Source: Lachnospiraceae bacterium (GTDB lineage: Bacteria; Bacillota; Clostridia; Lachnospirales; Lachnospiraceae). Taken from it: a DNA stretch of 34,807 bases. Location of the stretch: assembly GCA_022797375.1 (NCBI GenBank), contig JAAWKM010000022.1, forward strand, positions 1 to 34,807, given 5' to 3'. Positions 2,416-32,521 of this stretch are shown piece after piece; position 1 is the stretch's first letter; the number at the start of each line of letters is the position of its first letter. Under the pieces are notes generated by a model. That model was given only the letters and a program-made list of their open reading frames with translations, searched no databases and had not been told where the DNA came from. The translations under genes were made by a program, and so were the position numbers.

Positions 2416-4746
2416 ATGAAAACAATTAGTAGAAGGTTTTTTGCAATATCCATAACATCTTTTGCAATGGCATTAGTATTTACAGGATGTGGCAAAGGAG
2501 GTGGAAAAGATTCTGACAAGGGAAAAACCCCGGAATATGTATATGAATCAGAGTTTAATGACTTGGGCACTGCTGGAGTTGATTATGTAAGCAAGTCAAT
2601 AATAAATAATGGTAATATTTATATGACAGGTTCACATTACGAAGAAGACAAAAAAAACGGGACTGGAAAGTCTATAAATTATATTATGACTAGTTCTTTG
2701 GACAGACAGAAAATTGATATGGCTGAAATTAAAGGATTAAAAAAGGATGAATACCCGAGCAACTTGCTTATGGATGAAGAAGGAAATATTCTTATGGTTT
2801 CTTCTGTCTATAATTATAATGAAAAAACAAATACCAGCAATACAAAATATTTTATTCTGAATATTGATAAGAATGGCAAGTTATCCGGGCGTACTGAACT
2901 GAAACCTGGTCTTAAGAAAAATGAAGAATTTTATCTTAGCAGTTCTGTAATTTATGCCAATGAAAAATTTATATCAATTTCAGAACGAGACCGTAAAGTT
3001 TATATTTTCAATAAAGACGGCTCTTTAGATAAAACCGTTGAATCTGATAATTATATTGATAATATTTTTAAGGCAAATAATGGCAAAATCTATATTATGG
3101 GCAGTATGACGGATTCAATTGGCATGTGTGTGTGTGAACTTGATATAAAAGCTGGTAAATTTGGTGAACCTCTTGACTTGGGTGGCAATGTTATATACAA
3201 CGTCAAAAATACAAAACATGGCAAAGATGGCATTGTATACTTGTGTAATGATGAGGGGTTATATGAGTTTGATATTAATAAAAATAAGTCAGAGCTTTTA
3301 TTTAACTGGATAAATGTTGACATTAATGGTAATGATGTATCAGATTTCCAGATGGCAGAAGACGGAAACTTATCTGTTTTATGTACTTCATACAATTATG
3401 ACTCATCTGGAAATGGCAGTTCATCTTCAAATATCGAACTGGCATCTATTGCTAAAAAGAAATATTCCGAATCTGCACAAAAGAAAAGACTTACACTTGC
3501 AGCAAATTATTTAAGCCAGGAACTGAAAGATGAAGTCTTAAAATATAACAGGGACAATAAAGATTACCATATTGATGTTAAAAGTTACAGTATGTATGAA
3601 GACCCTCAAAAACAGATGAACCTTGATATAATATCAGGTGATGTGCCAGATATTATGGAAATGGGCGGATTATCTAAACCTATGTATATTAAGAAAGGTA
3701 TACTGGCTGATATATCTGGATTTATTGAGAATGATGATGAAATTAAAAAAGAAGATTTTGTAGATTCTGTAATTAGCACTATTGAAAATGATGGCAAATT
3801 ATATTATCTGCCAGCCACATTTTCTATAGTTGCACTTGCTGGCCCTAAAGAAGTTTTTAATGGCATGGAGGGCTGGACATATGAAGAAATGGAAGAAATA
3901 TATAACAATATGCCAGAAGGCGGCGTATTTATGCAAAACATGACAAGTGAATGGTTTATACAAAATATGCTGACTTCACAAATGAAAGATTTTATTAACT
4001 TTGAAACAGGAGAGGTAAACCTTAATTCTAAAGAATTTATACATATGCTTGAATTTTCAAAGAACTTCCAGACAAGTGACCAGTATATGAAAGAAATGGA
4101 AGAAAACGGATGGAAAAGTGAGGATATATCTGAACTTATTAAAAAGAAGAAACTATTGTTAAATAATATGTACCTGTATGATTTTTCAGATATCCAGGTT
4201 AATGAACAGATATTTAAAAACCGTGGCGGTTTTGTTGTTGTCAGCCAGCCTTCTAAAGATAAGAATAATAAATTATCAATGTCAACTAGTATGTGTCTGG
4301 CTATTTCAGAAAAATGTGATGATAAAGAAAATGCATGGAAATTCCTGCGCAGGCTTTATTTATATGATTACCAGAAAAAAGCATCTAACAATGGCAGTGG
4401 TTTTCCTGTAAGAAAAGATGTTTTAGAGAAAAAAATTGAATATGCTATGGCAACTAAAGAATATACAGATGATGATGGTACAAAAGTAACCCCCGAAGGT
4501 GACAGTTCATATTCAATGAATGATTTTACAGTAAATATAAAGCCATATACAAAAGCCCATATGGATTTATTCCGTTCCATGGTTGACAGAATTGGCAAGG
4601 AAGACACTTATGATACATTTTATACTGACATTTCCAAGATGCTTGAGGAAGAAACAAAAGCATTTTTTGCAGGTGACAAAACTGCAGAGGAAACAGCAGA
4701 AGTCCTGCAAAGCAGGGTAAAAATTTATGTCAGCGAAAATTCTTAA
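2416..4746 (+). CDS. Extracellular sugar-type solute-binding lipoprotein with an additional N-terminal (possibly beta-propeller-like) domain
   Basis: RBS GAGGTGAGGAAAGTT before ATG 2416 (ORF track starts upstream at 2371); lipobox FTGCGK; C-terminal half resembles family-1 SBPs (DIISGDVPDIMEMGG, AWKFLRRLY). Confidence 0.85.
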   Translation: MKTISRRFFAISITSFAMALVFTGCGKGGGKDSDKGKTPEYVYESEFNDLGTAGVDYVSKSIINNGNIYMTGSHYEEDKKNGTGKSINYIMTSSLDRQKIDMAEIKGLKKDEYPSNLLMDEEGNILMVSSVYNYNEKTNTSNTKYFILNIDKNGKLSGRTELKPGLKKNEEFYLSSSVIYANEKFISISERDRKVYIFNKDGSLDKTVESDNYIDNIFKANNGKIYIMGSMTDSIGMCVCELDIKAGKFGEPLDLGGNVIYNVKNTKHGKDGIVYLCNDEGLYEFDINKNKSELLFNWINVDINGNDVSDFQMAEDGNLSVLCTSYNYDSSGNGSSSSNIELASIAKKKYSESAQKKRLTLAANYLSQELKDEVLKYNRDNKDYHIDVKSYSMYEDPQKQMNLDIISGDVPDIMEMGGLSKPMYIKKGILADISGFIENDDEIKKEDFVDSVISTIENDGKLYYLPATFSIVALAGPKEVFNGMEGWTYEEMEEIYNNMPEGGVFMQNMTSEWFIQNMLTSQMKDFINFETGEVNLNSKEFIHMLEFSKNFQTSDQYMKEMEENGWKSEDISELIKKKKLLLNNMYLYDFSDIQVNEQIFKNRGGFVVVSQPSKDKNNKLSMSTSMCLAISEKCDDKENAWKFLRRLYLYDYQKKASNNGSGFPVRKDVLEKKIEYAMATKEYTDDDGTKVTPEGDSSYSMNDFTVNIKPYTKAHMDLFRSMVDRIGKEDTYDTFYTDISKMLEEETKAFFAGDKTAEETAEVLQSRVKIYVSENS

Positions 4747-4773
4747 TAATATCTGCAGGCAGATATTATTAAG
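4742..4773 (+). repeat. Perfect 32-bp palindrome/hairpin spanning the SBP stop codon
   Basis: CTTAATAATATCTGC-AG-GCAGATATTATTAAG: 15-bp perfect arms, 2-nt loop. Confidence 0.9.
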
Positions 4774-5706
4774 TTGCTGATAACAGATGGAGGTGGCAGC
4801 AGTACGGATAGGAAAAGGAAAAATAAAAATAAATCCAGAAATAAAAACCATTTAAAAGAACATCTTGTGTCAGGAATATTCCTTGCGCCCAGTTTTTTAG
4901 GTGTCCTGGTATTTATGGTTATTCCATTTATTGTGATTATTTATTATTCACTGGTTGACGGGCCTGTTGATGGCAATTTTGCAGGCCTGGATAATTTTAA
5001 GACGCTTTTTTCAAATGCTGCATTTCTACAAGCAGCAAGAAATAGTCTTCTTTTTTCAGTAATTGCAGTGCCGCTCGCAGTAGTGCTTTCTTTACTGCTT
5101 GCAGTACTGCTTGATGCCAATATCCCATGGCAAAGCCAGTTCAGGACATCTTTTCTTTGTCCTATGATGGTTCCTGTAGCATCTGTTGTCCTTATATGGC
5201 AGGTTATTTTTAATGCACACGGGGCTATGAACAGCCTGCTTGAAGTTTTTGGCTTTAAAGGTATTGACTGGCTTAAATCTGATTATAGCATGCTTGTTGT
5301 TATTAGTATGTTCCTATGGAAGAATTTAGGCTATAACATGATTTTATTTATGGCGGCACTTGGAAGTGTCCCAAAAGACATTATAGAAGTTGCACAGCTT
5401 GAGGCAGCAGGAAAATTTACAATCTTTTTCAAGATTAAGCTCAGGTACATAAATTCAACTGTTTTATTTGTAATAATTTTATCACTTATGAACTCATTTA
5501 AAGTATTCAGGGAAGTTTATCTTTTATCAGGTGCTTATCCTTATGAATCACTTTATATGCTGCAGCATTTTATGAATAACACGTTTGAATCCCTGGATTA
5601 CCAGAAACTTTCAGCTGCTGCTATTGTAATGTGTGCATTTATGGTTATTATAATTGGTATTTTATTTTTTATTGAGAGCAAGGCAGGTGAAGATTTTGAA
5701 AGTTAA
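4774..5706 (+). CDS. Sugar ABC transporter permease (MalF-like)
   Basis: About 6 TM segments; MetI-type EAA-like loop VPKDIIEVAQLEAAGKFTIFFKIKL; adjacent to SBP. Start uncertain (TTG 4774, or further downstream). Confidence 0.85.
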   Translation: MLITDGGGSSTDRKRKNKNKSRNKNHLKEHLVSGIFLAPSFLGVLVFMVIPFIVIIYYSLVDGPVDGNFAGLDNFKTLFSNAAFLQAARNSLLFSVIAVPLAVVLSLLLAVLLDANIPWQSQFRTSFLCPMMVPVASVVLIWQVIFNAHGAMNSLLEVFGFKGIDWLKSDYSMLVVISMFLWKNLGYNMILFMAALGSVPKDIIEVAQLEAAGKFTIFFKIKLRYINSTVLFVIILSLMNSFKVFREVYLLSGAYPYESLYMLQHFMNNTFESLDYQKLSAAAIVMCAFMVIIIGILFFIESKAGEDFES

Positions 5707-6586
5707 ACACAAAAAAAAGCGGCATAAAAAATCTGTTGTATTATTTATAATTGCATTGGCAATGGCAGTATTTTTCATGCTCCCTACTGTTCTTACAATA
5801 GCCAATTCATTTATGAGCCCGCAGGAAATTAAAGCAAATTATGGAATGGTTTTTAATGACCAGGAAAGTGCAGGATATATATCAGAGAAAGTAAACCTTA
5901 AATTTATTCCTGATATGGTAACATTTAAACAGTTTGCAACTGTTCTTTTTAACAGCCCTGATTACCTGTTTAAATTCTGGAATACAATAATATATACTGT
6001 TCCAATTCTTATAGTACAGGTTATTATTGCAATACTTGCAGCGTATAGTTTTACGAGATTTAAAGGAAGGTTAAAGGAGATTTTGTTTTTTGTATATATT
6101 ATACTTATGCTCCTCCCCTACCAGGTAACCCTTGTACCTAATTATCTTGTAACGGACTGGCTTGGACTGCTTGATACAAAATGGGCAATCTGGCTGCCAG
6201 GAATGACTTCACCTTTTAGTGTATTTCTGTTTACAAAATTTATGCGCCGCATACCAGATTCACTTATAGAAGCAGCAAAAATTGATGGTGCAGGGGAATG
6301 GCAGATTTTTTCAAAAATATGTGTACCCCTCTGCAAAGGGGCAATGGTTTCCGTATCAATACTTATATTTATTGATTACTGGAATATGGTTGAACAGCCA
6401 CTTATATTACTTAAAAATGAAGACCTGCACCCGCTTTCAGTTTTTCTCTCCAAGATTAATTCAAGTGAGATAAGTCTTGCATTTGCAGTTGCAACAATAT
6501 ATATGGTTCCAGGAATTTTAATATTTTTATATGGAGAGGAATATCTGATAGAGGGTATTTCATATTCTGGCGGATTAAAGGGTTAA
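5696..6586 (+). CDS. Carbohydrate ABC transporter permease (MalG-like)
   Basis: EAA motif IPDSLIEAAKIDGAGEWQIFSKICVPL; TTG start at 5696 preceded by AGGCAGGTGAAG and overlapping the upstream stop; ORF track start 5654 is probably too early. Confidence 0.85.
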   Translation: MKVKHKKKRHKKSVVLFIIALAMAVFFMLPTVLTIANSFMSPQEIKANYGMVFNDQESAGYISEKVNLKFIPDMVTFKQFATVLFNSPDYLFKFWNTIIYTVPILIVQVIIAILAAYSFTRFKGRLKEILFFVYIILMLLPYQVTLVPNYLVTDWLGLLDTKWAIWLPGMTSPFSVFLFTKFMRRIPDSLIEAAKIDGAGEWQIFSKICVPLCKGAMVSVSILIFIDYWNMVEQPLILLKNEDLHPLSVFLSKINSSEISLAFAVATIYMVPGILIFLYGEEYLIEGISYSGGLKG

Positions 6587-6612
6587 GTTTAGGGAAGGAG
6601 ATAATATTTCTT

Positions 6613-8931
6613 ATGACAGAACAGGATTTAACAAAGAAATACCAAAAGCGTAAAGATATAATTAAAAATATTGCTATTATCTTTTTAGTAATCATGCTTT
6701 TACTTACATTTTTTTCCAATACTATTATGAATTATTCGCTTGCAGAAGTGGAAACTGCTTATGCAGAATCGGGCACTCTTACTACAAAAATACGTGGTGA
6801 AGGTTATGTTGAGGCAAGAGAACCTGTAAAAGTAAGCAGCAAAAATGAAAGGGAAATTTTAAAAGTATTGGTGAAAGATGGTGATAAAGTTAAAAAGGGC
6901 CAGGCGCTGTTTGTACTTGCAGGCGAAAGCAGTGCAGATGCGCTTAGACAGGCAAAGTCAGAACTTATGACACTTAACCATGACTATGCAAAATCACTTC
7001 TTGAAATGGCTGTTCCTGGTTATGCCACAAATTCACTTGAAATAAAGTATGCAAAAAAAGACCTGCAAAATGCACTTAAAAATGTAGATGATGCTAAAAA
7101 AGAGAACAGCAGGAAGAAAACAAAGTATGCAGAACTTAAGAAAAAGGCTGGAGACGCTAAAAAGAAAATGCTAAATAAGGCAGATGAAGTATCAGCAAAT
7201 GCATATAAAATTTCACAGGCTGACCTTGAGCTTGAAAGCCTTGAAGGTGAAAAAGCAGAACTTAGTGGTGAGAACAGCGCAGATATGCAAGAACTGGATG
7301 CAGCAGTAACAGCAGCACAAAGAGAGACAGAAGACGCTGAAGATAAGGTAAAACAGTATGAAGACAGCCGCACTTCCAAAACGATTGAAGAAGAACTTAA
7401 AACAAAAAGAAAAGAACTGGAAGATATTCAAAAAAGCCTTGAAACTTTAAAGACTGAATTAAAAGAAGCAGAAACACCAGGTTCCCAAGATGAAAAGATT
7501 ACAACCTTAAACCGCAGCATACGTGACTGTAAGTCAGAGATATCTACGCTTAACAGCAAAGCCAGCCAGGCAGATGCTGAAATTGCAGAACTTAATTATT
7601 TATACTATAGTGCTGATGCTGAAATGAAAGACCATTACTGGCAGCAGCTAAGCAATGCTAAACAGGAGTATATTGAATTAACTAAACAGATAGATGATAA
7701 GAAACAGGAACTTGATGACCTGGAGAAAGATTTGGAAACTGCACAAAAAAATGCAGAAACATCAAGTGACAAGAAGATTAAACAGCTAAAAAAGGATATT
7801 ACAGAAAAGGAAAAGGATATCACAGAACTGCAGAAAGAAATATCTTCACTCGAAAAAGAAAAATCATTAAGTGATAACAGGGAGAGCCAGCTTGCATCAG
7901 CAAAAACAGAACTGTATGCTGCACAGAAAAAATTAAAAGATGCGCAGCGTAAGCTTGAGGATGCAAAGAACGCTGTTAAAAATGAAAACAGTACAAAGAT
8001 AAAGTCTGTAGAAGACAAAATCAAAGCATTAAAAAGCAAAAAACTTAAACTTAATAACCAGAAAACAAAACTTGAGAATTCATATGCCCAGCTCCAGTCA
8101 GCTTATGAAACTGCTAAAGCAGAGGCAGATTCTTACCAGAAAGCAGATGAAGACCTTATTGATACATTAAACCAGGCTGTACAGGAAAAGCGCAAGGCTC
8201 TTGAAACTCTTTATATTAACCTTGCAAAAGAAAAAAGTGATGATAGCCTTAAAAGGCAGGTAGCAACCCTTGATAATGAACAGAAGGCAAAATCAATCCA
8301 GTTGAAAAAAAATGAAATTGCACGCCTTAAAAAGAAACGCAGAAATGTTATAATCAGGGCAAAGCTTGCTGGCACTATTTCTGATTTAACCGCAAAGACC
8401 GGGGAAAATACAACACCTGGAAACAGCATGCTGCATATACAGCCAAGCGGAAACGGCTACCAGATAAGTATTCCTGTAACAGCAGAGCAGAGCAAACTGG
8501 TTAAACGTGGTGATAATGCTACAGTATTAAATATGTGGGATGATGATATAAAAGTGGTCCTGTCAAATATAAAGACAGACACACAAAATCCAAGTGCTGG
8601 CAAGACCCTTGTTTTTAATGTTTCAGGTAAAAATATTGAAAATGGTACTTCATTAAGCATATCTGTTGGTGAGAGAAAAGCAAATTATGATTACATAGTG
8701 CCTACAAGTGCAATACGCGAAGACAGTGATGGCAAATTTGTATTAGTAATCCAGGAAAAACCAAGCCCTGTAGGCAACCGTTATATTGCTAAAAAAGAAG
8801 AAGTACAGGTTCTTGCACAAAACGAAACGCAGTCAGCAATATCAGCGGGATTTGACAGTTATGCAAATGTTATTACTACTGCTTCCAAGGCTGTTGACAA
8901 GGGTGACTATGTACGTCTTGCACAGCAGTAA
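6613..8931 (+). CDS. HlyD-like membrane fusion/adaptor protein with a very long coiled coil
   Basis: N-terminal TM; lipoyl-like half-motif KVLVKDGDKVKKGQALFVL; long Glu/Lys heptad region; second half-motif IIRAKLAGTISDLTAKTGENTTPGNSML; RBS GGGAAGGAG. Confidence 0.85.
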   Translation: MTEQDLTKKYQKRKDIIKNIAIIFLVIMLLLTFFSNTIMNYSLAEVETAYAESGTLTTKIRGEGYVEAREPVKVSSKNEREILKVLVKDGDKVKKGQALFVLAGESSADALRQAKSELMTLNHDYAKSLLEMAVPGYATNSLEIKYAKKDLQNALKNVDDAKKENSRKKTKYAELKKKAGDAKKKMLNKADEVSANAYKISQADLELESLEGEKAELSGENSADMQELDAAVTAAQRETEDAEDKVKQYEDSRTSKTIEEELKTKRKELEDIQKSLETLKTELKEAETPGSQDEKITTLNRSIRDCKSEISTLNSKASQADAEIAELNYLYYSADAEMKDHYWQQLSNAKQEYIELTKQIDDKKQELDDLEKDLETAQKNAETSSDKKIKQLKKDITEKEKDITELQKEISSLEKEKSLSDNRESQLASAKTELYAAQKKLKDAQRKLEDAKNAVKNENSTKIKSVEDKIKALKSKKLKLNNQKTKLENSYAQLQSAYETAKAEADSYQKADEDLIDTLNQAVQEKRKALETLYINLAKEKSDDSLKRQVATLDNEQKAKSIQLKKNEIARLKKKRRNVIIRAKLAGTISDLTAKTGENTTPGNSMLHIQPSGNGYQISIPVTAEQSKLVKRGDNATVLNMWDDDIKVVLSNIKTDTQNPSAGKTLVFNVSGKNIENGTSLSISVGERKANYDYIVPTSAIREDSDGKFVLVIQEKPSPVGNRYIAKKEEVQVLAQNETQSAISAGFDSYANVITTASKAVDKGDYVRLAQQ

Positions 8932-8948
8932 AGGCAGGTGTTGTTTAT

Positions 8949-10073
8949 ATGAAAGTTTTCCTGGGGAAAACAAAAAATAAAATAAGGTTTACAACATTTT
9001 TAATATGTGTGGTTGTGGCTTTTGTGTGTCTGTGCCTTTTGCATGAAACTAACCAGAAAGAACGGGAGTCTAATGCAGCGGCACGCTGGAAATCAGACAA
9101 TCAGGAATTTTCATATATTTCTGTATATATTTCTCCAGAAGAAAACTGGAAAGAAAATGACAGGAATATGCTAATTAGTAATTTAAAAATGTCATTCCAG
9201 CAAAACTCCATTATAAACAAAGACAGGGAGGACAATAATGAAGGGCTTATAAAAGATTGTTTCAGCTGTGAAGATGTAATGGAATTTACTAATGGTAAAA
9301 ATACAGCAACAGCAAAAGTTACAGCGACAGGTGGTGATTTTTTCTTTTTCCACCAGCCTGTCTGGCTGTCTGGCTTTGCATATTCAGACAATGACGTAAT
9401 GGAAGACCGTGCCGTAATTGACAAAGAACTTGCCTGGCAGCTTTTTGGCGGGGAAAATGTAACAGGAATGCCATTTAAAATAAATGGCAATACATATTAT
9501 GTAGCAGGTGTAGTTGACACAAGCCAGCTAAAGGAAGATAAAAAAGCATATGGTGAAACCAGCCGTGCATGGCTTCCTTATAGCGCTTTCTGCAAAGAAT
9601 ACCAGGGAAATGAACCAGCACCTGGAGAAACAACAAATATTGGTATTAACAGTATGGCAGATACAGGTACAGGTACAGATGGACAATCAGATAAACTTCC
9701 CATTACATGCTATGAGATTGTACTCCCAGACCCTGTAAAAGAATGGGCAGTAAATCTTATACAAACAAGCCTCAATGCAAAAGAACGTAAAATGGTAGTA
9801 ATAGAAAACAGTAAAAGAACAAATTTCCTTTATGTAATTGATAATTTAAAGAATTTTTTCTATAAAACATCAGGTACACAGCCAGTTGCATATCCTTATT
9901 GGGAAAATGCAGCAAAAGTGCGCGATACTAAAAGAGAAATTTATACAGGGATTATTTTAGTTGCACTTATATACCCGGTATTATTATTTATCAGGATTAT
10001 TATATGGATTTACAAAACAATAGATGGTAAAATTAAAAAACGTATAAATAAAAAACATGCATACCCTCTTTAA
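8949..10073 (+). CDS. MacB_PCD-like extracytoplasmic protein with N- and C-terminal TM segments only
   Basis: RAVIDKELAWQLFGGENVTGMPFKINGNTYYVAGVVD resembles the MacB periplasmic core; TMs near residues 11-29 and 335-356; no FtsX permease domain. Confidence 0.7.
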   Translation: MKVFLGKTKNKIRFTTFLICVVVAFVCLCLLHETNQKERESNAAARWKSDNQEFSYISVYISPEENWKENDRNMLISNLKMSFQQNSIINKDREDNNEGLIKDCFSCEDVMEFTNGKNTATAKVTATGGDFFFFHQPVWLSGFAYSDNDVMEDRAVIDKELAWQLFGGENVTGMPFKINGNTYYVAGVVDTSQLKEDKKAYGETSRAWLPYSAFCKEYQGNEPAPGETTNIGINSMADTGTGTDGQSDKLPITCYEIVLPDPVKEWAVNLIQTSLNAKERKMVVIENSKRTNFLYVIDNLKNFFYKTSGTQPVAYPYWENAAKVRDTKREIYTGIILVALIYPVLLFIRIIIWIYKTIDGKIKKRINKKHAYPL

Positions 10074-10084
10074 AACAAGCAAAA

Positions 10085-10117
10085 ACTGCATAAGATTCCA
10101 GGTTAATCTTATGCAGT
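10085..10117 (-). terminator. Intrinsic terminator downstream of hpf
   Basis: ACTGCATAAGATT...AATCTTATGCAGT stem, followed by a T-tract on the minus strand. Confidence 0.8.
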
Positions 10118-11165: not shown

Positions 11166-11750
11166 CTATTCTATATCCCTATTAACCTTTTCCCTTACTT
11201 CCTCAATATCTAACATTTTAATATCTGAATAATACAAATAATATCCATTTGTATCACCTCTGTCCTCACCATCTTCACTCTTGTAAAATTCCATTGCAAT
11301 TTCTCCATCTTTTAACCATACAATACTATAACAGCTTCTATTCTCTCTTTCTTCCCCAAGAGATACCCTGTATGATACATGAATATCCATAAAGAAATAT
11401 GATGGCAATTTATATAATCCACCATCATATTTTTCTATAAATGGTGCAAATGCTGGTATTACCCCTTCTGGTAGTCCATTAATAATATTAACATCTCCAT
11501 CAAACAACCTGTTTCCTCTTTCTTTAGTAACCACTCCATCTATAACTATTTTTTTTGATTTAATCTTATTTCCATCCTGGTCAATCCCTTCACACATTTT
11601 TGATATATGTATCTGTCCATAATTGCCAATAAAATGCATCCCATCTGAATGAAACCATCTGTAAAGTACTATGAATACACTGGCAAATACTAATACAAAT
11701 AACATAAAAATTGTAAATCTTAATAATTTTCTTTTTTCTATATTCTTCAT
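11166..11750 (-). CDS. Hypothetical membrane-anchored protein
   Basis: 194 aa; one N-terminal TM; family not recognised. Confidence 0.7.
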   Translation of the reverse strand: MKNIEKRKLLRFTIFMLFVLVFASVFIVLYRWFHSDGMHFIGNYGQIHISKMCEGIDQDGNKIKSKKIVIDGVVTKERGNRLFDGDVNIINGLPEGVIPAFAPFIEKYDGGLYKLPSYFFMDIHVSYRVSLGEERENRSCYSIVWLKDGEIAMEFYKSEDGEDRGDTNGYYLYYSDIKMLDIEEVREKVNRDIE

Positions 11751-18100: not shown

Positions 18101-21100
18101 TTATTTCTTTTCAAGATTTGATAAATACAGTGTACAGAACATATGTGACGGCTCAATTCTAAGTGCTTTGTGGAAAAATTCCTTTGCCTTTTCCACTTCG
18201 CCAAGCCCAAGCCTGCCAAGCCCCATAAGATAATAACAGTGTGCCTTGTTTCTTGCTGTATAGTCTTCATTGAATATCTGGAATTCTGGCAGTGAAACTG
18301 CAAAATATTCAATTTTGGTTTCATCCCACAAATGTTTCTCACCATAATCAATTAAACGGTAAAACCTTGATTTGGCTTCTGCTGTTTTTCCAAGTTTCTG
18401 TTTTGCAAGCCCCTGGTACATAATCATATCCGCTGGCTGGTCATTGTAATACATCATCCCTGCCGGCTCGTCTGTCCCATATGTTGCTTTCTCATAACAT
18501 TCTTTTGCTTTGTCTTCCATGCCCTGGGCTTCAAGTGCAAGTCCAAGATTATAAAATACATGGTTATCTTTAGTACCTTCAAGTTTGCCCTCACCAAGGT
18601 TTTCTGGATATACAAATGTCTTATGTAAAAGTTCTTCAGACTTGGCAGCATCCCCGTTAATAAGGGCTTGTTTTGCAAGTTCCACAAGTGCAAGTGTATA
18701 CTGCATTGTAATTTTACCTTCCCCGCCTTCCCATGTATGGAACTTATGCCCCATAGCAAGGTCATATGCTTTCTGGTGCCTGCCTGTCATATTATTAAGT
18801 GTAATATATTCAATAAATAAATCGTCCCTGCCTTCTATAATATCCCTGTGTTCTTCGTATTTTTCAAGCCTTTGTGCAAAGCTGTAACCTAACTTTTTAT
18901 AGAGCTGGTCAAGTTCAAGGAATACACGTACATCTGATGTATCTAATGCAAATGCTTTTTCCATTTCTGCCTTTGCGGCTTCCTTATTATTCTGGTTGTT
19001 GTAATATGCAAGTGCAAGGTTGCGGTGTACTGTTGCAAAACCTGGATATTGTGTGGCTGCCTTCTCCCAGAGTTTTATGGCTTCTGTACGCTGTAATTTG
19101 TCATAGAACAGGCATCCAAGATAGTATGCCGCCATACCAGCATCAAATGTATTAACAGCATAACGCAGTGCTAAAATATCTTCTAATTTATTAGGGAAAC
19201 AATAAGCAGGGTCTGCTGCTTCTGCTTCTTTTATCTTTGCACCAGCTTCTTCTGTCCTGCCAAGGCATCCAAGATAATATGCTTCATAATATTTTACAAG
19301 TGGTGATGTTTCTTTACATTCTGCAAGCATTAATAAAGCTTCTTCATAAGCCCCTGCTTCTGCATAATCCCTTGCAGACATCAGGTAATTCTGGACAAAT
19401 CCGCGCATAAGGCTGTCCAGTTCCTTTTTGGCTGCTGTACTGTCATCTGAAAGAAATGCCTTCTCAAAGCCGCTTACAAAATCAAATGGGTCAAGTAAAA
19501 GATTTTCTTCTGCAAGTTTTCCTGCCTCTTTAAACATTCCAAGTTTACGCAGTATATACACCTTTAAGCCGCGTGCTTTAATATTATGTGCATTTTTAAC
19601 AAGCCCTTTTTCTACCATTTCAAGTGCATGTGCCAGACGTCCTTTTCTAGCATCTATTGCTGCAAGATAATAGAATGACATTTCCTGCTGCTCATTGCTC
19701 CATGTTGCCTTAAAGAAATCATCATAAGCCCCGTCATATTCACCAAGATAAAACTTTGCAAGCCCCAGGTTATAATATGCCTCACTTGTATATGGGTTTG
19801 GGCTGCGCCTTGTCATACGCTCTAATGCCTTTTCAAGATATTTCTTAGCCTCTTTAAAATTACCACGCCTCATTAAAAGGCTTCCATATGCATTATTAGC
19901 ACGTATATCACCTGGGTCACGCTTTAATGCTTCAATATAATATGGGTCTGGCAGATATGTTGCATGGCGGTATTGTTCAATATGAAGCCCTGCAAGATAC
20001 AATTCCTCTACTGTTGGTATATCCTCTGGCTCACCAATTGCTTCAGCAGGTAAAGGAAGCTTCTCAATTTTCTGTTCTTCTGGTGTATAAGCTACAAGCA
20101 CTTTTCCATTTTCAGTAATGCATACATTAAGCTTTGTTTCATCTTCTGCGGTAAAATCTATATCTTTCTCAAATATATCTGTTGGTGAAAGTACCGTATT
20201 TTCTTCAAAAACTGTACTGCCATTATAACTTAGTGTAACCTTAGCCTCATGTTTTCCAGTTGCATATGCAATAATTTTTGTTTTTCCATCTTCTGTAAAC
20301 AGGTTTACAGCAGCGTCAATAGTTGCATTTTTAACCTGCCCAACTGCCTTGTATGGCATAAAATACTGTTTAAATGTCTTTTCTTCAAATGGTTTTAACC
20401 ATGTAAAATCAGGCTGGTTATCTGTATAAACACCTGTCATAAGTTCTACATATGGACCATCTTCATCTGTAAGATTCCTGTCCCATGCTTTCCCAAAATC
20501 ACCACAGCCCCATGTCCACTGTTTTTTACCAGGAGAAAAATGATGGTCTGCCACATGAAGTATTCCTGCACATTTCTGGTAATCATAACCGCCTACAAAA
20601 TCATATTTTGATTTTTCTGCCATATAGCTTGTTGGTACAGGGATATTTTTATATCTTGATATATCAACGCCTTCGCTGTAATCTTTTTTGTAATATACAC
20701 CTGTTGCAATTGGAAACCTTGAAACATCCCTTTTGCCATGGTCCATTACAGCATGTACATCTGGCGGGAATATTGACTGTGTATAATCATTTACTGGCAC
20801 TGCCGGGTTTGCCCACCATAAAAATGTCTGCGGAAGCGGTGTGCGGTTGTAAAGCTGCCCTGTTATCTCAATATATGCCTTCCCAGGATAAAGTGTAAAC
20901 TTTGCAATCCCTTTTGTACCATTTATCTGGTCTACATCATGTACAAGCACTGATTTGCTGCCGTCTGCATTTTCTTCTGTAATATAATCAACAGGAAGGT
21001 ATGTAGTAGGCCTGTGGTGCTGTGGCCAGTTAAATTCAATACCGCCAGAAATCCAAGGCCCTAAAAGCCCTACAAGTGCTGGTTTTATTACATGGTTATA

Positions 21101-21382
21101 ATATACAAAGTCATAATTATTTGTCTTATCATATGCCCTTTGTATACGTCCGCCCAGCTCTGGCAGAACCATAACCTTTAAATATTCATTTTCCAGGTAA
21201 ACGGCTTTATATTCCTTATTAACTTTTTCATCTTTAATTTTTTCTATTGTGGGATATGGATAAACTTTGCCTGAACTCCCCTGGTAGACACGCTTATCAA
21301 TAAATACCGGGTTCTTCTCTGGTTCCCCAATTTCATATGTTGGTATAATTACTTTTTCTTCCCATACTTTTACTACACTCAT
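18101..21382 (-). CDS. DUF5107-type domain plus TPR-repeat protein
   Basis: N-terminal beta-rich mutarotase-like sequence (VLPELGGRIQRAYDKTNNYDFVYYN, GGIEFNWPQHHRPTT); TPRs from about residue 480; no signal peptide; RBS GAGG. Confidence 0.85.
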   Translation of the reverse strand: MSVVKVWEEKVIIPTYEIGEPEKNPVFIDKRVYQGSSGKVYPYPTIEKIKDEKVNKEYKAVYLENEYLKVMVLPELGGRIQRAYDKTNNYDFVYYNHVIKPALVGLLGPWISGGIEFNWPQHHRPTTYLPVDYITEENADGSKSVLVHDVDQINGTKGIAKFTLYPGKAYIEITGQLYNRTPLPQTFLWWANPAVPVNDYTQSIFPPDVHAVMDHGKRDVSRFPIATGVYYKKDYSEGVDISRYKNIPVPTSYMAEKSKYDFVGGYDYQKCAGILHVADHHFSPGKKQWTWGCGDFGKAWDRNLTDEDGPYVELMTGVYTDNQPDFTWLKPFEEKTFKQYFMPYKAVGQVKNATIDAAVNLFTEDGKTKIIAYATGKHEAKVTLSYNGSTVFEENTVLSPTDIFEKDIDFTAEDETKLNVCITENGKVLVAYTPEEQKIEKLPLPAEAIGEPEDIPTVEELYLAGLHIEQYRHATYLPDPYYIEALKRDPGDIRANNAYGSLLMRRGNFKEAKKYLEKALERMTRRSPNPYTSEAYYNLGLAKFYLGEYDGAYDDFFKATWSNEQQEMSFYYLAAIDARKGRLAHALEMVEKGLVKNAHNIKARGLKVYILRKLGMFKEAGKLAEENLLLDPFDFVSGFEKAFLSDDSTAAKKELDSLMRGFVQNYLMSARDYAEAGAYEEALLMLAECKETSPLVKYYEAYYLGCLGRTEEAGAKIKEAEAADPAYCFPNKLEDILALRYAVNTFDAGMAAYYLGCLFYDKLQRTEAIKLWEKAATQYPGFATVHRNLALAYYNNQNNKEAAKAEMEKAFALDTSDVRVFLELDQLYKKLGYSFAQRLEKYEEHRDIIEGRDDLFIEYITLNNMTGRHQKAYDLAMGHKFHTWEGGEGKITMQYTLALVELAKQALINGDAAKSEELLHKTFVYPENLGEGKLEGTKDNHVFYNLGLALEAQGMEDKAKECYEKATYGTDEPAGMMYYNDQPADMIMYQGLAKQKLGKTAEAKSRFYRLIDYGEKHLWDETKIEYFAVSLPEFQIFNEDYTARNKAHCYYLMGLGRLGLGEVEKAKEFFHKALRIEPSHMFCTLYLSNLEKK

Positions 21383-22560: not shown

Positions 22561-25500
22561 TTATTTTACTATAATTTTAAAATTTAATTTTTTTGTTTTT
22601 TCATTTTTCATAGTTACTTTTACATTAATTACAACACTGCCTTTAGATTTTGTTTTAATTTTCCCAGATTTTAATACTGTTGCAATATTTTTATTTGCGG
22701 AACTGGCAGTAATTTTTTTAATACTTGCCTTATCCATTTTTTTATTAAATGGAATTTTAACTTTTTTCCCTGTCCTGGCAGTTTTCTCTACAGCAGAAAG
22801 TTTTATTGTTTTCATAATTTTTTTCTCTGCTTTTTTACTATCTGCTTTGTCCAGAAGAATATAATTCTTTCCTGCTGGCATAGTTAATGTTAATGACCCG
22901 TTTCCAGATATTTTATATGTCTTTGCATTTACCATTGTGTATTTGCCTGTATTGTTATTGTAAGCGTATATATACAGTTTTTTGCCTTTAATTAAATTAT
23001 CTTTGTCCACGGTAACTGTGCACAGCTTTTTGCCTTTACTGTCCTTAATTTTTATTTTTACATTAACCGGTTTAGCAGTTTTAATTTCTTGTATTTCCTT
23101 TATACTTCCTTTGCTAATTACAGCTTTAACTTCTTTTTTAGAAACTTTGCCATTTACTGTTAAAGATACATTAACCGGTTTATCTTTATCATTATTGTCT
23201 ACTGGTTTTTCTGTAACAGATGGCACTGCACTCTCTGAAGGCTTTGCTGTAACTTGTGGCTGCATGCTTGCCTCTGGCTGCACAGTAACTTGTGGCTGCG
23301 GGCTTGCCTCTGGCTGTAAGCTTGCCTCTGGCAACGCACTTGTTTCTGGCAGCGGGCTTTCCACTGGCTGTGCACTTGCTGTTGCTGCCGGATAATATGG
23401 GTTTAAAATAACACTTCCACCTGGTTTTGGTGAAGAGGTAATTTCTGGTGATGGCACTGGTGAAGGTTCTTCCACAATCCCGTTTTCCTTTCCACAATAA
23501 CCAAGCTGTACAAGGTCAAGGACTGCCCAGTCTTTGCTTACGGTGTCCATATAAAAACCAACAGTAATATCCTCTCCCTTATCAACAGCAAATTCCAGTT
23601 CAACCGGCATATATGCCCCTGTATTTGGTATATCCTTTCTGGCAATAACTTCACCTTGCGGGTCTTTAACATACATATAAAACTTGCCATCCATCCACTC
23701 GCTATGTGTAACACCTGTATATGCATGTGCACGCAATATATATGTGCCCTTTTCAAGCCCTGTAACTGTCTGTGAAGCATCTGCCCAGAATTTATCTGCT
23801 GACCAGAATGCAAGTGCATATATTCCGTCATATCTGCTTGCTGCACTTCTCTCCTGCACTACTACGCCATTCGTACCTTCCTGGCATGTAAATTTCCATC
23901 CATCCGAAGAATTTTCAAAACTTGGATTTGTTATTTTGCCTGTATCTTCTGGCATAACAATAATGCCAGCATCACATACCGTATCTTTTTCAATTTCAAG
24001 CTGTAAATCCCTGCCAATACCGCCAGCAGCGGATATTGATAATTTTACTGTACCTGCTGTTACATTCTCAAATTTAAAACTGCCTGTTTCATCTGTAACA
24101 GTTTTCATGCCGCCATACATGCCTATAGCAACATTTATACCAGCAAGTGGTGCTTTATCCTTGTCTGTAACTTTTCCAGTTATAGTTCCTGTATTATCTT
24201 CCAGTACAACAGAAAGTTCTTTTTCTTCATATACAGAAAGGCTGCACTCTCTTTCTTCAGTTGCATAACTGTTCTTAACATAAGATATTTTGTAAGTCCT
24301 GCCTGCTTCCAGGTCTAATGTGTAAAAACCGTCCGCACCTGTTTTTACATTTATTGTATCTGTCCCGTCTGATGCAGATACCCTTGCTCCTTCTATTGGC
24401 ATTTTGCTGCTTGTTGTTATCGTCCCTGAAACTGTGCCCGAAGTTTTTTGTATTATTATATCCTGCCCTGACGTGGCTTGCAGCTCTATAACCTGTGGCT
24501 GCTCCTGTTTATAGCCTGCTGCCTTTACAGTAATACTGTAACTGCCTTTTGGAATATTTTCAAAAACCCAGTTTCCTGTTACATCTGTATAAATTGAAAA
24601 TACATCCCCGCTCTTTGTATTGCAGGCTGTTACCAGTGCCCCTGCCACTGGAAATGCACTTTCCCTTGTGTCTGTTTCCTTATTATAAATTACCCTGCCG
24701 TTTAAAGAAACTCCTGTGGCTGTTATTATGGCAGGCTCTGATGATACGTTGCCTTTGCCTATTGTAATGCTGCCTGGATTATCTATACTACAGTCCATTC
24801 CTTCAATATCTGCACTTATAGTATAATCCCCTGCTGGCACTTCCTTACGGAATTCACCATATCTGCCTGTCTTTATAGTAACTGCCTGGCCTGCTTTTGT
24901 ATTATCTGTTAATAATAATTTTGCTGTAACACCAGAAACCCCTTTACCGTCACTGCTAATAATTTTCCCGTCAAGTATTCCGGTTTCTGCAAGGCTTCCT
25001 TCCCTGTTATAGCGGTATGCATCTGCCACTGGAAGCAGTTTGTGCCCAAAGTCAAATAAAGTGGTATTTGAGATAACATTTACATCTGCTGTATCACTTT
25101 CTTCTAACATTGCCCATCCTACATTTTCCTGCTGTACCATTACCGGGTCCCAGTATAAATCACCTATACAGCGGCCATCTTTTACACTTTTGACACCATT
25201 TAAAACTTCATACATAAATTCACGCTGGTTATCAGGTGAGCTTCCCCCATCTGCCTGGTTTCCATTTGCATCTTTGCCCATAAAAGGATATGGCCCGTTA
25301 TGGTATAACTGCCCTGTATCTTTTCCGTTTGCAAGCAAATCATTAAAACATATAGCTGTTTCCATCAGCATAATATCTTTATCGTACCTGTCTACAAGCC
25401 CGTTACAGAAATCTACAATCTGGCCAGGCTCCATATTTGTCCAGAATGGATAATATGACGGGCCTATAATATCATAATCTACATTATATTCCTCACATTT

Positions 25501-27819
25501 ATCAAAAAAACCATTATATTTTGATGTATCACCTGCCCCGTCAAGATGTAAAATAATCCCGCATTCTTTACCGTATTCCTCCTCTGCTGCCCTTACTGCC
25601 TTTGCTGCAGAATTTAAAAACCTTGCAAGGTATGGCCACCTGTCATTTGCAGCTTTGCCAAGAGGATAGAAAAGACCATCCTGCATTTCATTGCCAAATG
25701 ATATATATTCTGGGAAAGTATCCTGCGCTGCCATTGCGTCAAGAACTTCTGCTGTATATTCTCCTGTAAGTTCTTCGAGTTTATTAACAGCTTCTTCCTC
25801 ATTCATGCCTTTTATCTTTTCCTGCCATTCCGATGGTATAATCTGTGTTGCCGCATTGCTCCAGTAATCACTGAAATGGAGTGAAAGCTGTATTCTCATT
25901 CCTTTTTCTTTAGCACGTTTTGCCTGGCTTAATATATCCTCCAGTGTCTCATAACCTTCGGGGCAGTAATACCCATTTTCACCACGTCCCTTTCCAGGAT
26001 TATTATAAAGACGCAGGCGTGCTATATTATATCCTGTATCTGCAAGTATCTGGAATACATCACCCTCCATACCTGCTTCATCATAAAATTTTGCACCCTC
26101 ATCTTCAAGCCATGTAATCATTGACATATCGCCACCCTGGTTAATGCTGTACTGTCTGTCCTGGTTTTTTTCCCTTTGTAACTGTATTGTGTCAAGCTTC
26201 AGCCTGTTACCTGCATATGCATCTGTATATACACCTACCGTTGCTTTGCCATCTTCACCTACATAAATACCCCTGGCTGTAATAAGAGTCCATTCATTTT
26301 CACTCTTTTTAACACCGCGCCTTGGAATAGCAGTAATGCTCTTAGACTGTCCAGTCCCGTTGCCATACAGATAGCATATTTTCTGGTCTTTGCTGCTCTC
26401 TCCCTTTGTCTTGTTAGCATATGCTGTAAGGTAATACCATCCCTCTTCTAAGCCTGTAACTTCCTGTGAAATCTCCGCTTTATAGTCTGAAGTGCCTGTA
26501 ATATCCAGATATTTAACACCTGTATGTGCACCATTCTCTTTTAATTCTATTATACCTGTGCTATCCATTGTCCATGATAATAAACTGCCATCCTCATCTG
26601 TCCTTTCAAAAGAGCTGTTATCTGGCTTAATATCTGTATCATTATATTCCTGTACTAATTCCAGTGAACAGTCATCAAAAATTGCCCATACATCTGCTGC
26701 TGATTTTACATGAATTCCAACAACTGCCTTTCCATCAGTACCAGCTTTAAATTCTAATTTATTTGCCTGCCAGTTCCAGCCAGAAGCAATATCCTTTTTT
26801 ACCTGTTCCTGGCTGTCTGAAGAAGCATAAATAAAACATTCTTCTGGTGCTCCTGTCTGTGCATAAACTGTAAAGACATATTTTCTGCCAGGAACAAGCC
26901 CTGTAACATTCTGGTAAATACTGGTGTCTGTTTCAACACCGCCTGTCTGCAAAGTATATTCCCCGTCCCTGGCATCTGCCCTTTTCATTGAATACACAGG
27001 TGTTCCTTCTGTTTCCCAGCCTGCTGGTATATATGTATCAGGAAATTCTTCAAAAGAACCATTTATAAAACTGCCCTTCCCTGTTTCATCTGGTTCTGGA
27101 TTTGGATTTTCCTCTCCGTCCCCGTCCCCAGTATCTGTATCTCCTGTATTTATAAGAGAAAACTTGTCAAGCCAGAGGGTTTTGCCTGCGTTCTCCCCTC
27201 CTTCTGCCTCTGCACCTATTATAATACTGCCACCTGTTACTTCTATATCACTAACTTTAATTTCCTGCCAGCTATTCCAATTAGTTTCAATTGAACCCTC
27301 TTTGTTAAACATACTGCTTTTTTCATTATCCTGGCTGCCACTATAAGCATATATTTTGCCATATGTTTCTTTATCTCCATATATCCAGGCTGAAAGTTCA
27401 TACTTCCCGTCTGGCACATTGTTTATTTCCTGGTACACATTTCCAATATATTTATTAGCATCATTTGTACTTTCATAACCTGCATTAAATTCTAATACTA
27501 CGCCTCCATCACATCCTGTCTGTGTTTCTGTTATCCAATGGTAATGTGCTGCCTTTCCTGAACCATTAGCATCTTTACTGCCGTAATCTGTAGTATTATC
27601 ACTAATTATCCATCCATCTATGCCATTTCCCCAGTTATTACTAATTTCAAACGACGGATTAACAACCAGGTTTGTTATACTTCCAGTGCCATCTCCTTCT
27701 TCTGCCGCCAATGCATATACTGGCACTATCTCCGTAACTGCCAGGGCCGCAGCAAGCATTATCCCTAAACTGCGGCGCAGCAAATAACATGGCTTAATAT
27801 GTTTTCCTAATACCCCCAT
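22561..27819 (-). CDS. Multidomain secreted GH53 endo-beta-1,4-galactanase
   Basis: GH53 core QGGDMSMITWLEDEGAKFYD...IARLRLYNNPG...LHFSDYWSNA, YISFGNEM (acid/base) and LMETAICF (nucleophile); several CBM-like domains, CarboxypepD_reg-like repeats, P/S/E/Q linker, Lys-rich C-terminus. Start at MGVLGK (27819) with RBS AAGGGAGATTAT. Confidence 0.92.
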   Translation of the reverse strand: MGVLGKHIKPCYLLRRSLGIMLAAALAVTEIVPVYALAAEEGDGTGSITNLVVNPSFEISNNWGNGIDGWIISDNTTDYGSKDANGSGKAAHYHWITETQTGCDGGVVLEFNAGYESTNDANKYIGNVYQEINNVPDGKYELSAWIYGDKETYGKIYAYSGSQDNEKSSMFNKEGSIETNWNSWQEIKVSDIEVTGGSIIIGAEAEGGENAGKTLWLDKFSLINTGDTDTGDGDGEENPNPEPDETGKGSFINGSFEEFPDTYIPAGWETEGTPVYSMKRADARDGEYTLQTGGVETDTSIYQNVTGLVPGRKYVFTVYAQTGAPEECFIYASSDSQEQVKKDIASGWNWQANKLEFKAGTDGKAVVGIHVKSAADVWAIFDDCSLELVQEYNDTDIKPDNSSFERTDEDGSLLSWTMDSTGIIELKENGAHTGVKYLDITGTSDYKAEISQEVTGLEEGWYYLTAYANKTKGESSKDQKICYLYGNGTGQSKSITAIPRRGVKKSENEWTLITARGIYVGEDGKATVGVYTDAYAGNRLKLDTIQLQREKNQDRQYSINQGGDMSMITWLEDEGAKFYDEAGMEGDVFQILADTGYNIARLRLYNNPGKGRGENGYYCPEGYETLEDILSQAKRAKEKGMRIQLSLHFSDYWSNAATQIIPSEWQEKIKGMNEEEAVNKLEELTGEYTAEVLDAMAAQDTFPEYISFGNEMQDGLFYPLGKAANDRWPYLARFLNSAAKAVRAAEEEYGKECGIILHLDGAGDTSKYNGFFDKCEEYNVDYDIIGPSYYPFWTNMEPGQIVDFCNGLVDRYDKDIMLMETAICFNDLLANGKDTGQLYHNGPYPFMGKDANGNQADGGSSPDNQREFMYEVLNGVKSVKDGRCIGDLYWDPVMVQQENVGWAMLEESDTADVNVISNTTLFDFGHKLLPVADAYRYNREGSLAETGILDGKIISSDGKGVSGVTAKLLLTDNTKAGQAVTIKTGRYGEFRKEVPAGDYTISADIEGMDCSIDNPGSITIGKGNVSSEPAIITATGVSLNGRVIYNKETDTRESAFPVAGALVTACNTKSGDVFSIYTDVTGNWVFENIPKGSYSITVKAAGYKQEQPQVIELQATSGQDIIIQKTSGTVSGTITTSSKMPIEGARVSASDGTDTINVKTGADGFYTLDLEAGRTYKISYVKNSYATEERECSLSVYEEKELSVVLEDNTGTITGKVTDKDKAPLAGINVAIGMYGGMKTVTDETGSFKFENVTAGTVKLSISAAGGIGRDLQLEIEKDTVCDAGIIVMPEDTGKITNPSFENSSDGWKFTCQEGTNGVVVQERSAASRYDGIYALAFWSADKFWADASQTVTGLEKGTYILRAHAYTGVTHSEWMDGKFYMYVKDPQGEVIARKDIPNTGAYMPVELEFAVDKGEDITVGFYMDTVSKDWAVLDLVQLGYCGKENGIVEEPSPVPSPEITSSPKPGGSVILNPYYPAATASAQPVESPLPETSALPEASLQPEASPQPQVTVQPEASMQPQVTAKPSESAVPSVTEKPVDNNDKDKPVNVSLTVNGKVSKKEVKAVISKGSIKEIQEIKTAKPVNVKIKIKDSKGKKLCTVTVDKDNLIKGKKLYIYAYNNNTGKYTMVNAKTYKISGNGSLTLTMPAGKNYILLDKADSKKAEKKIMKTIKLSAVEKTARTGKKVKIPFNKKMDKASIKKITASSANKNIATVLKSGKIKTKSKGSVVINVKVTMKNEKTKKLNFKIIVK

Positions 27820-27849
27820 ATAATCTCCCTTCTGCCTGTTTACAGGCAA

Positions 27850-30132
27850 TTATAAAATCTTTAGTTCATATACTGGTACTGCTTCTATACTGTTTATTTC
27901 ACCTGTTGTAGTTTCCACTTCTTCTATGCGTGCTGCCATTGCAGATTCTACATTTACCTTAGCGCCCTCTTTTAATGGTGTAACATAAATAACCAGCGGG
28001 TGCTCCTTTAACCTGTCCTCAAATGTGCGCAGCCCTATTTCCCATACAGCCCCATTACAGAAGTTATCATTTATCATGTTTCCATCAATAAATGCATGGC
28101 CAATATCACCCTGGTAATTAATGCGCAAAAGCACATCCTTTACACCTTGCATAAAGTTCTCTGGAAATGCTACTGTATACCGGTTTGCTGCCACTTCTTT
28201 TAATTCTGGTGATATTTGTACCTTATTGGCAGATGCCTTATAAAATCCAAAGCCTTCAATCCTGCTTTCTGCCCCTGCTTCTTCTACATAAATACTTCCA
28301 GCAAGAAGGTTTACAGGATATGTATATATTCCAGGCTGGTTATTATAAGTTTCCAGATATACACTCCCTTCTTTAACCATAACCGCATCTTCTGCAAATA
28401 AAAAACCTTTGTTGCCAAGTTTATACATTTTGTTGGAAAGCCCGCGGCTTATACATATTACCTTAAATACAGCTTCTCCCTTAGATACTGTGAAAATATC
28501 CGCCTCTTTTTCTGTATCTGCACTGTACCTGTTTACACTATTTCCATTTATAAGAACACCCTCCTCAAATATAAATTGTGATTTCATTCCATCAGGACGC
28601 ATAAATATATACACAATGCTGCTGCCATCCTGCATATATGTAACAGGCTGTGCTGTCGCATATTCAAGGTTAATGCCCTCCATATCAAAGTTAAACGGCA
28701 GAATACAGTTTTCATCAGTATCAATTCCAATATTTTCAAAAGTTATATCACCATCTGCAAGCTTTAATGTAATATTTTCATTTTCTTTTGCAGGCATTAC
28801 TTCATGGTCCTGGTAATTATTAATAAATAAAAAGCCCCTCTTTCCATCAGTACGTACAGCAAAACGCAGGGTATCTAAATCCTTTGGCGCAATCTGTGAA
28901 GCCCCGTCAGGAAGCATTGTTTTTAAACCGCAGAGTTTTTCCTGGTAAGTTTCTGCGAAATAATGCATTGTCTTTAAACGCGTGTATGATTCACGCACCT
29001 GCCCGTATTCACCTAGTGCTGCCTGGTAGTCATAACTGATTTTAGGCACCTGCCCTTCATTCATAAAAACACCATTTTTCCCTACTGGGTTGCTCCCTCC
29101 CTGGAACATATAATATCCAAGGAAATTACAGCCTGAAGCCATCTTTATATTTGCCATGGCATCTATACTTTTATATGGAAGCTGGAAACGGTAATAATAT
29201 GAACATGTCATGCCGCCGCCCATCTCACAGCAGGCATATGGCTTATCTTCTGGTTTATACTTTGGCTCAAAGTTGTATGACTTAGGGATTTCATTATTAT
29301 GCAAATCCTGGTACACATATTCCTGTGTACTTGGATGCTCACCTTTATAAGAATAAAAAAGCCAAGGCTGGAAAGCATACCCGCCCCAGAGCGGCATCAT
29401 ATTTTCCGGGGCTGATGCACCTCCCCAGCCAGTACATGTATAAAAAACAGGTGTTAAACCACATTCTGCCGCCAGTCTTTTAAGTTCCAGCATATAAGCA
29501 TCCCCTTCATTGCCGCCAAATACCCATTCATCTGATATTCCTGTTGTAATCTCCCAAGGTGCTGATGAATGCATATATTCATTGTCAATCTGTGTACCTA
29601 TTACTGGTCCGCCATCTTTAAAGAAAAGCCCTTTAACCTGTCCTGCAATCTCTGTATACAAGCGTCTGGTATAATACAAAAAACCTTCATTTAACTGCCT
29701 GCATTCAAATGGTTTGCCATACAGCCAGTCAGGAAGCCCTCCATTCCTTACCTCACCATGGTCAAAAGGCCCAACACGCAGTATTACATAAAGCCCATAT
29801 TTTCCACAGAGTTCTATAAATTTCCTTACATCCCTTCTGCCTGAAAAATCAAACCTGCCTTCTTCCTCTTCTATATGGTTCCAGAACACATAAGTAGCTA
29901 TTACATTAATCCCGCACATTTTTATCTTAGCAATTTCATCTTCCCACATACTGTCATCCATCCTTGACATATGGAATTCACCACTAATTCCGTAAAAAGG
30001 CGTTCCATTCTTTAACATATAATAATTATTAAACGATATTTTATCACCATTACTGCTTATGCCTGAAAAATCCTCCCCTAAATCCCATATTTCTTTGCCT
30101 TTAAAACCTGTTAAATCTATAACATTATCCAT
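27850..30132 (-). CDS. GH35-family beta-galactosidase, probably cytoplasmic
   Basis: GISGEFHMSRMDDSMWEDEIAKIKMCGINVIATYVFWNHIE, RVGPFDHGEVRNGGLPDWL, GTQIDNEY; no signal peptide. Confidence 0.88.
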   Translation of the reverse strand: MDNVIDLTGFKGKEIWDLGEDFSGISSNGDKISFNNYYMLKNGTPFYGISGEFHMSRMDDSMWEDEIAKIKMCGINVIATYVFWNHIEEEEGRFDFSGRRDVRKFIELCGKYGLYVILRVGPFDHGEVRNGGLPDWLYGKPFECRQLNEGFLYYTRRLYTEIAGQVKGLFFKDGGPVIGTQIDNEYMHSSAPWEITTGISDEWVFGGNEGDAYMLELKRLAAECGLTPVFYTCTGWGGASAPENMMPLWGGYAFQPWLFYSYKGEHPSTQEYVYQDLHNNEIPKSYNFEPKYKPEDKPYACCEMGGGMTCSYYYRFQLPYKSIDAMANIKMASGCNFLGYYMFQGGSNPVGKNGVFMNEGQVPKISYDYQAALGEYGQVRESYTRLKTMHYFAETYQEKLCGLKTMLPDGASQIAPKDLDTLRFAVRTDGKRGFLFINNYQDHEVMPAKENENITLKLADGDITFENIGIDTDENCILPFNFDMEGINLEYATAQPVTYMQDGSSIVYIFMRPDGMKSQFIFEEGVLINGNSVNRYSADTEKEADIFTVSKGEAVFKVICISRGLSNKMYKLGNKGFLFAEDAVMVKEGSVYLETYNNQPGIYTYPVNLLAGSIYVEEAGAESRIEGFGFYKASANKVQISPELKEVAANRYTVAFPENFMQGVKDVLLRINYQGDIGHAFIDGNMINDNFCNGAVWEIGLRTFEDRLKEHPLVIYVTPLKEGAKVNVESAMAARIEEVETTTGEINSIEAVPVYELKIL

Positions 30133-30282
30133 ATTTACCTCCCATACAAGCTATCTACTGTCAAATTATATCCACAATCTGCCCCGCCGCTTGCCAATTG
30201 GCAAAACAACCTCATTGCCGCTTAAGAGACATGCACTTTAAGGGCTTACTCAATTAGGTTAAATTATCTTTATACCTTTCTA

Positions 30283-32456: not shown

Positions 32457-32521
32457 ACCTTTTATAAAAATGGCTATTACCAGTTATCATGGCAACAGCC
32501 ATCCATATACTATTACTTTGT

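Follow-up and report, generated by a model that had tools for sequence, protein, structure and literature searches.

What are the parts of a sugar importer and those of an efflux-type assembly doing in a single operon? The question is raised by positions 2416-10073 of a 34,807-nucleotide stretch of DNA (the window), which is one entire contig (C62; JAAWKM010000022.1) of the 3.9-Mb draft genome of a Lachnospiraceae bacterium (GCA_022797375.1) and whose closest named matches are metagenome-assembled genomes of Lachnospiraceae and Acetatifactor. Five plus-strand genes code there for a substrate-binding protein (SBP), MalF- and MalG-type permeases, a membrane-fusion protein (MFP) of the HlyD/MacA type and a MacB-core protein. 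The initial annotation, made from the DNA letters alone, had singled them out as a candidate under-described system. Our analyses support the view that these parts of importer and efflux type are conserved and inherited together as one module, which we did not find described as such. A search of open-access papers by family names yielded no description of the module, and it was the match of the SBP to CbpC of Clostridium thermocellum that led to its sole studied member.

Gene calls were made mechanically. The genes are intact and, as initially annotated, tightly spaced, with gaps of 17-30 bp or overlaps; they adjoin one another without gene fusion. All five products score above the Pfam cut-offs (SBP_bac_8/SBP_bac_1, BPD_transp_1 twice, HlyD_3 and MacB_PCD). 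The assigned start of the SBP, ATG 2416, is likewise borne out by a clear ribosome site upstream. The operon comprises:

2416..4746, plus strand: substrate-binding lipoprotein (SBP) with a lipobox cysteine, Pfam SBP_bac_8
about 4774..5706 (start codon approximate), plus strand: MalF-type CUT1 permease, Pfam BPD_transp_1
5654..6586 (start somewhere in 5654-5690), plus strand: MalG-type CUT1 permease, Pfam BPD_transp_1, overlapping the MalF stop
6613..8931, plus strand: MFP, an HlyD/MacA-type adaptor, Pfam HlyD_3
8949..10073, plus strand: MacB-core protein with two transmembrane (TM) segments flanking a MacB_PCD domain, Pfam MacB_PCD

The conservation of this arrangement was determined on 80 named genome loci picked by MalF alone, so that the adaptor and MacB-like genes could not bias the sample; 75 of them had enough flanking DNA to be evaluable. 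The genes for MalF, MalG, MFP and the MacB-like protein follow one another in the same order and on the same strand in 74 of these 75 loci, the single exception being L126. The last two genes, whose routine separation from the others in relatives had been considered in the initial annotation as grounds for giving up the idea, thus remain with the permeases. The same arrangement is present in a further 38 loci from the order, picked by the MacB-like protein, and in 22 from a wider set, which brings to 134 the loci sharing the order of the four core genes, far more than chance would produce. In one lineage (L192 and L200), the complete set has the order MFP-MacB-MalF-MalG. The module is found in several families and also outside the class, among unrelated flanking genes, and the pairwise distances of the four core proteins correlate at 0.89-0.95 over the 134 loci (raw distances, uncorrected for kinship).

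The ordinary CUT1 permeases taken for comparison, those of L182 and L203-L205, have neither an MFP nor a MacB partner; with the MalF profile their scores reach about 215 bits at most, and those of module members are 236 or higher. L181 reaches 242 bits, yet also lacks both partners. Of a second tier scoring about 290-350 bits, to which six members of the window's genus belong, 20 loci were inspected and about 13 of them carry the module. The distribution within this genus (G000-G027) is patchy: three genomes harbour the window type, as detected with the MacB-like protein, and six others the divergent type, as detected with MalF, with no overlap between them.

The first three genes have the make-up of a CUT1 importer, namely an SBP and two BPD_transp_1 permeases bearing EAA loops. 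MalF has an EAA-type loop and the clade motif Y-x-LQHFMNN, and its matches in the PDB are SugA, AlgM1 and MalF; MalG has the loop EAAKIDGA and matches AlgM2, SugB and MalG. Alignments showed that the EAA loops are kept in both permeases. The C-terminal SBP domain is by far nearest to CbpC (best PDB match 7x0o, E 2.5e-41 with the family profile). It is preceded by an extra N-terminal domain, probably a beta-propeller judging from weak matches to propeller-like repeats. Many module loci encode two to five SBPs, and where several long copies are present, pairs are about 32% identical. Such sets of diverged SBPs resemble the situation of one permease serving several ligands.

The initial annotation had remarked that no ATPase is encoded in the operon. 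This is correct, but the absence is not anomalous, since MalK-type ATPases are encoded behind MacB in relatives and ATPase sharing is a known phenomenon. Eight related loci of several lineages (L056, L124, L175-L180) have a MalK/MsmX-type ATPase gene directly after the MacB gene; three of these ATPases were checked in Pfam and have OB_MalK and TOBE_2 domains, while the other five were judged by sequence likeness. The host genome has a MalK/MsmX-type homologue outside the operon, on contig C257, as a candidate partner of MalFG. In Gram-positive bacteria, Clostridia among them, one MsmX-type ATPase can be common to several sugar importers, and transporter B of C. thermocellum has been shown to be served by an ATPase of the stand-alone kind (PMC9601137). 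A MacB-type ATPase was found in none of the 134 modules; a canonical MFP-ATPase-MacB operon is present for contrast in L089. The engine is therefore of the importer type, and no MacB-type ATPase accompanies the MFP and the MacB-like protein. The short ATPase encoded behind the module in L140 resembles SufC by sequence.

The fourth gene product is a member of the membrane-fusion protein family according to its model and fold matches, with an N-terminal TM segment, lipoyl and barrel domains and a coiled coil covering residues ~108-574. Its Foldseek matches are BesA, CusB, AcrA and MacA. The median MFP length is about 590 residues in the named-loci sample, compared with about 440 in the class-level sample. 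If the coiled coil of the window protein is one hairpin, its arms would each have about 230 residues, a length suggestive of a span across the wall, although the monomer model (pLDDT 81) has a pTM of 0.34. We also scanned the MFPs for a TolC-binding motif at the hairpin tip, with inconsistent results because the pattern was too loose.

The MacB-core protein was modelled with higher scores (pLDDT 89.5, pTM 0.86) and matches MacB, YknZ, Spr0694/5 and LolE in Foldseek. It has neither an ATPase nor an FtsX domain, and no nucleotide-binding domain is fused to it or encoded next to it. In one MalF clade of 116 loci (support 0.965), the MacB-like protein mostly has two TM segments and never four or more, whereas outside this clade most MacB-like proteins have four or more; all these counts except that of the modelled window protein are based on hydropathy. 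The form found in the window thus appears to have lost the TM segments through which MacB couples to its ATPase. The MFP and MacB genes nearly overlap, with a median of -3 bases from the MFP stop to the first matched MacB residue.

These adaptors are encoded by bacteria with no evidence of an outer membrane, as the assembly factor Omp85 was found in none of 25 carrier genomes. A tripartite pump of the Gram-negative type was rejected on this ground. No match to the OEP family was detected in the host genome or in the other family-f1 genomes tested. In G063, a genome without Omp85, a secreted TolC-like protein (OEP, PF02321; positions 493-1608 of L087) is encoded directly 3' of the MacB-like gene, and matches to the same family lie close behind a second MacB-like match on contig C54.

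The one member of the module that has been studied in part is transporter C of C. thermocellum (CbpC; clo1313_2783-2786 / Cthe_2125-2128). In the corresponding locus, L188, the SBP is identical to CbpC and is followed by MalF, MalG, MFP and MacB_PCD genes. CbpC lacks the extra N-terminal domain of the window SBP, the MacB-like protein has more TM segments than that of the window, and the MFP is shorter and, in the assembly read, split over two frames (6085-7059 and 5637-6122). A remnant of a second SBP lies further upstream (11351-11584). Transporter C was studied solely as a possible sugar importer, and its efflux-type parts were not discussed: the legend of a transporter map names an 'acra' gene on which the main text is silent (PMC9601137).

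How might such parts work together? The reading that we favour, with about an even chance of being right, is that of a Gram-positive ABC importer powered by an MsmX-type ATPase and equipped with an MFP/MacB-like superstructure in the wall zone. The SBP lipoproteins would capture their ligand outside the membrane and hand it over to the MalF-MalG pair, which would be energized by a MalK/MsmX-type ATPase, shared in the host and encoded within the operon of some relatives. The MFP, with its coiled coil, might build a tube- or collar-like structure in the wall zone, as MacA-type adaptors do, and have the MacB-like protein, next to the permease, as its docking site; in this putative conduit or docking role it would organize how the SBPs or a large substrate reach the importer, the presumed direction being inward. 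We favour this assembly because of the conserved gene order, the correlated distances, the EAA loops, the MalK-type ATPases, the absence of Omp85 from the 25 carriers, the presence of several SBPs and the folds of the adaptor and MacB core, and because Spr0693 provides a Gram-positive precedent for an adaptor tube. Several observations nevertheless weigh against it. In 2022, CbpC was reported to bind none of the sugars tested and to have its pocket blocked by a loop, and growth of a cbpC mutant on glucose, cellobiose and Avicel was normal (PMC9601137); an earlier study, as cited in PMC9601137 and PMC11212667, contradicts the binding result, having reported that CbpC bound glucose and cellodextrins. 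The split MFP in L188 may indicate that the system is decaying in that strain. Furthermore, no glycan-degrading neighbour or glycoside hydrolase was found among the recurrent operon-neighbour clusters, from which a few representatives were scanned in Pfam.

The blocked pocket, the missing sugar phenotype and the lack of recurrent glycoside hydrolases speak for the main rival, which we regard as possible but unlikely: an importer-type engine (MalFG with an MsmX-type ATPase) re-used for work or sensing outside the membrane. The SBPs would then be sensors or effectors, and ATP-driven motion would be passed to the MacB-like core and the MFP by mechanotransmission, as in MacB, LolCDE and FtsEX, for envelope maintenance, antimicrobial defence or signalling. 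MacB-family proteins do perform extracytoplasmic work (PMC5985334), and OmpR-type histidine kinase/response regulator pairs adjoin 17 of 67 divergent loci, most of which encode four-TM proteins, versus 2 of 103 in the two-TM group (adjacency only, uncorrected for kinship). However, it is to the latter group, mostly devoid of such pairs, that the window belongs, and the negative results with sugars were obtained in a single species. The EAA loops and the MalK-type ATPases of relatives are typical of importers, and as the usual coupling segments are missing from the MacB-like protein of the window, force transfer would require an unknown contact. We think an efflux pump improbable: MalFG would there be an unusual source of power, and the MFP together with the MacB-like protein would extrude a compound from the membrane's outer face. 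Adaptor and MacB-core pairs are normally devoted to efflux (YknXYZ, Spr0693-0695), and one genus encodes the TolC-like secreted protein behind MacB, but all 134 modules are without a MacB-type ATPase and the linked ATPases are of the MalK type. SBPs belong to importers, and in the window's group the MacB-like proteins mostly have only two TM segments. Lastly, each part taken alone comes from a common family, and two unrelated systems might lie side by side by chance. We rejected this very improbable explanation on the basis of neighbourhood conservation, as the gene order is maintained across families with unrelated flanks, and ordinary CUT1 permeases (L182, L203-L205) lack the MFP and MacB genes.

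Beyond the importer reading, we tentatively propose, at rather less than an even chance, that the module represents an unrecognized class of Gram-positive ABC systems, with an importer-type engine set in a wall-zone MFP/MacB-like assembly that either imports large substrates through the wall or drives extracytoplasmic work. In that case the proteins of the window, with a two-TM MacB core and a coiled coil of great length, would represent a derived form.

Two inverted repeats accompany the operon:

4742..4773, plus strand: perfect 14-bp inverted repeat with a 4-nt loop in the SBP/MalF gap, fold z-score -3.6
10085..10117, no strand assigned: 13-bp inverted repeat 3' of the last, MacB-like gene, fold z-score -4.8

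From its placement, the former would be an intercistronic RNA hairpin, with a presumed function in the transcript. The latter has a T-rich tail on the minus strand only and is for this reason more suited to terminating the opposing ribosome-hibernation gene than the operon. No plus-strand terminator-like site was found between the five genes, the sole plus-strand candidate (4217-4233) lying within the SBP gene. Elsewhere in the window, the minus strand codes for a secreted C39-like cysteine peptidase divergent to the operon (585-1706), with a weak match to a staphopain-type pro-region, and for a 1093-residue DUF5107 protein with TPR repeats (18101-21382). As to other module loci, OmpR-type pairs are found upstream of the module in L083, L085, L177-L180 and L215-L229, and in one genus (L057, L059, L060, L065-L069, L075, L077) genes for a GntR-like regulator, a 301-residue ABC ATPase and a large DUF6449 membrane protein directly precede the module. 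A defence system was considered and rejected, the PADLOC matches being weak and mostly to coiled coils.

The module is present in a sizeable share of the sampled Clostridia, including gut Lachnospiraceae, and its genes match general families only (sugar-importer parts, HlyD-type adaptor, MacB core), none of them module-specific. MFPs have no settled role in bacteria without an outer membrane, and in this module their link is with an importer rather than with an efflux pump. The module may also bear on the puzzle of transporter C, studied as a sugar importer and devoid of a sugar phenotype.

Compared with known systems, the module shares with the CUT1 importers that depend on a common MsmX (MalEFG, SugABC, AlgM1M2S, transporter B) an SBP, two EAA-loop permeases and an ATPase often encoded elsewhere, but those importers lack partners of the MFP or MacB-like kind. 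The same contig provides an example of an ordinary CUT1 importer, on the minus strand at 22561-33841, in a galactan locus with a GH53 endo-galactanase bearing carboxypeptidase-regulatory-like repeats and a GH35 beta-galactosidase. With MacAB-TolC, the module has in common the folds of the adaptor and of the MacB periplasmic core. It differs from that system, and from tripartite efflux pumps with their outer membrane and TolC-type duct, by the lack of Omp85 in the 25 carriers, of an OEP match in the host and of a nucleotide-binding domain in fusion with the MacB core or next to it. Closer counterparts are YknWXYZ of Bacillus and Spr0693-0694-0695 of Streptococcus pneumoniae, which likewise combine an MFP with a MacB-fold protein in bacteria without an outer membrane. 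Those systems have a dedicated MacB-type ATPase and a four-TM permease, and neither an SBP nor MalFG, whereas in the module the MFP gene lies beside that of a MacB_PCD protein with two TM segments in the window, and the linked ATPase, where present in relatives, is of the MalK type. In the pneumococcal system, Spr0693 forms a hexameric tube that rises about 154 Å above the membrane (PMC5768738).

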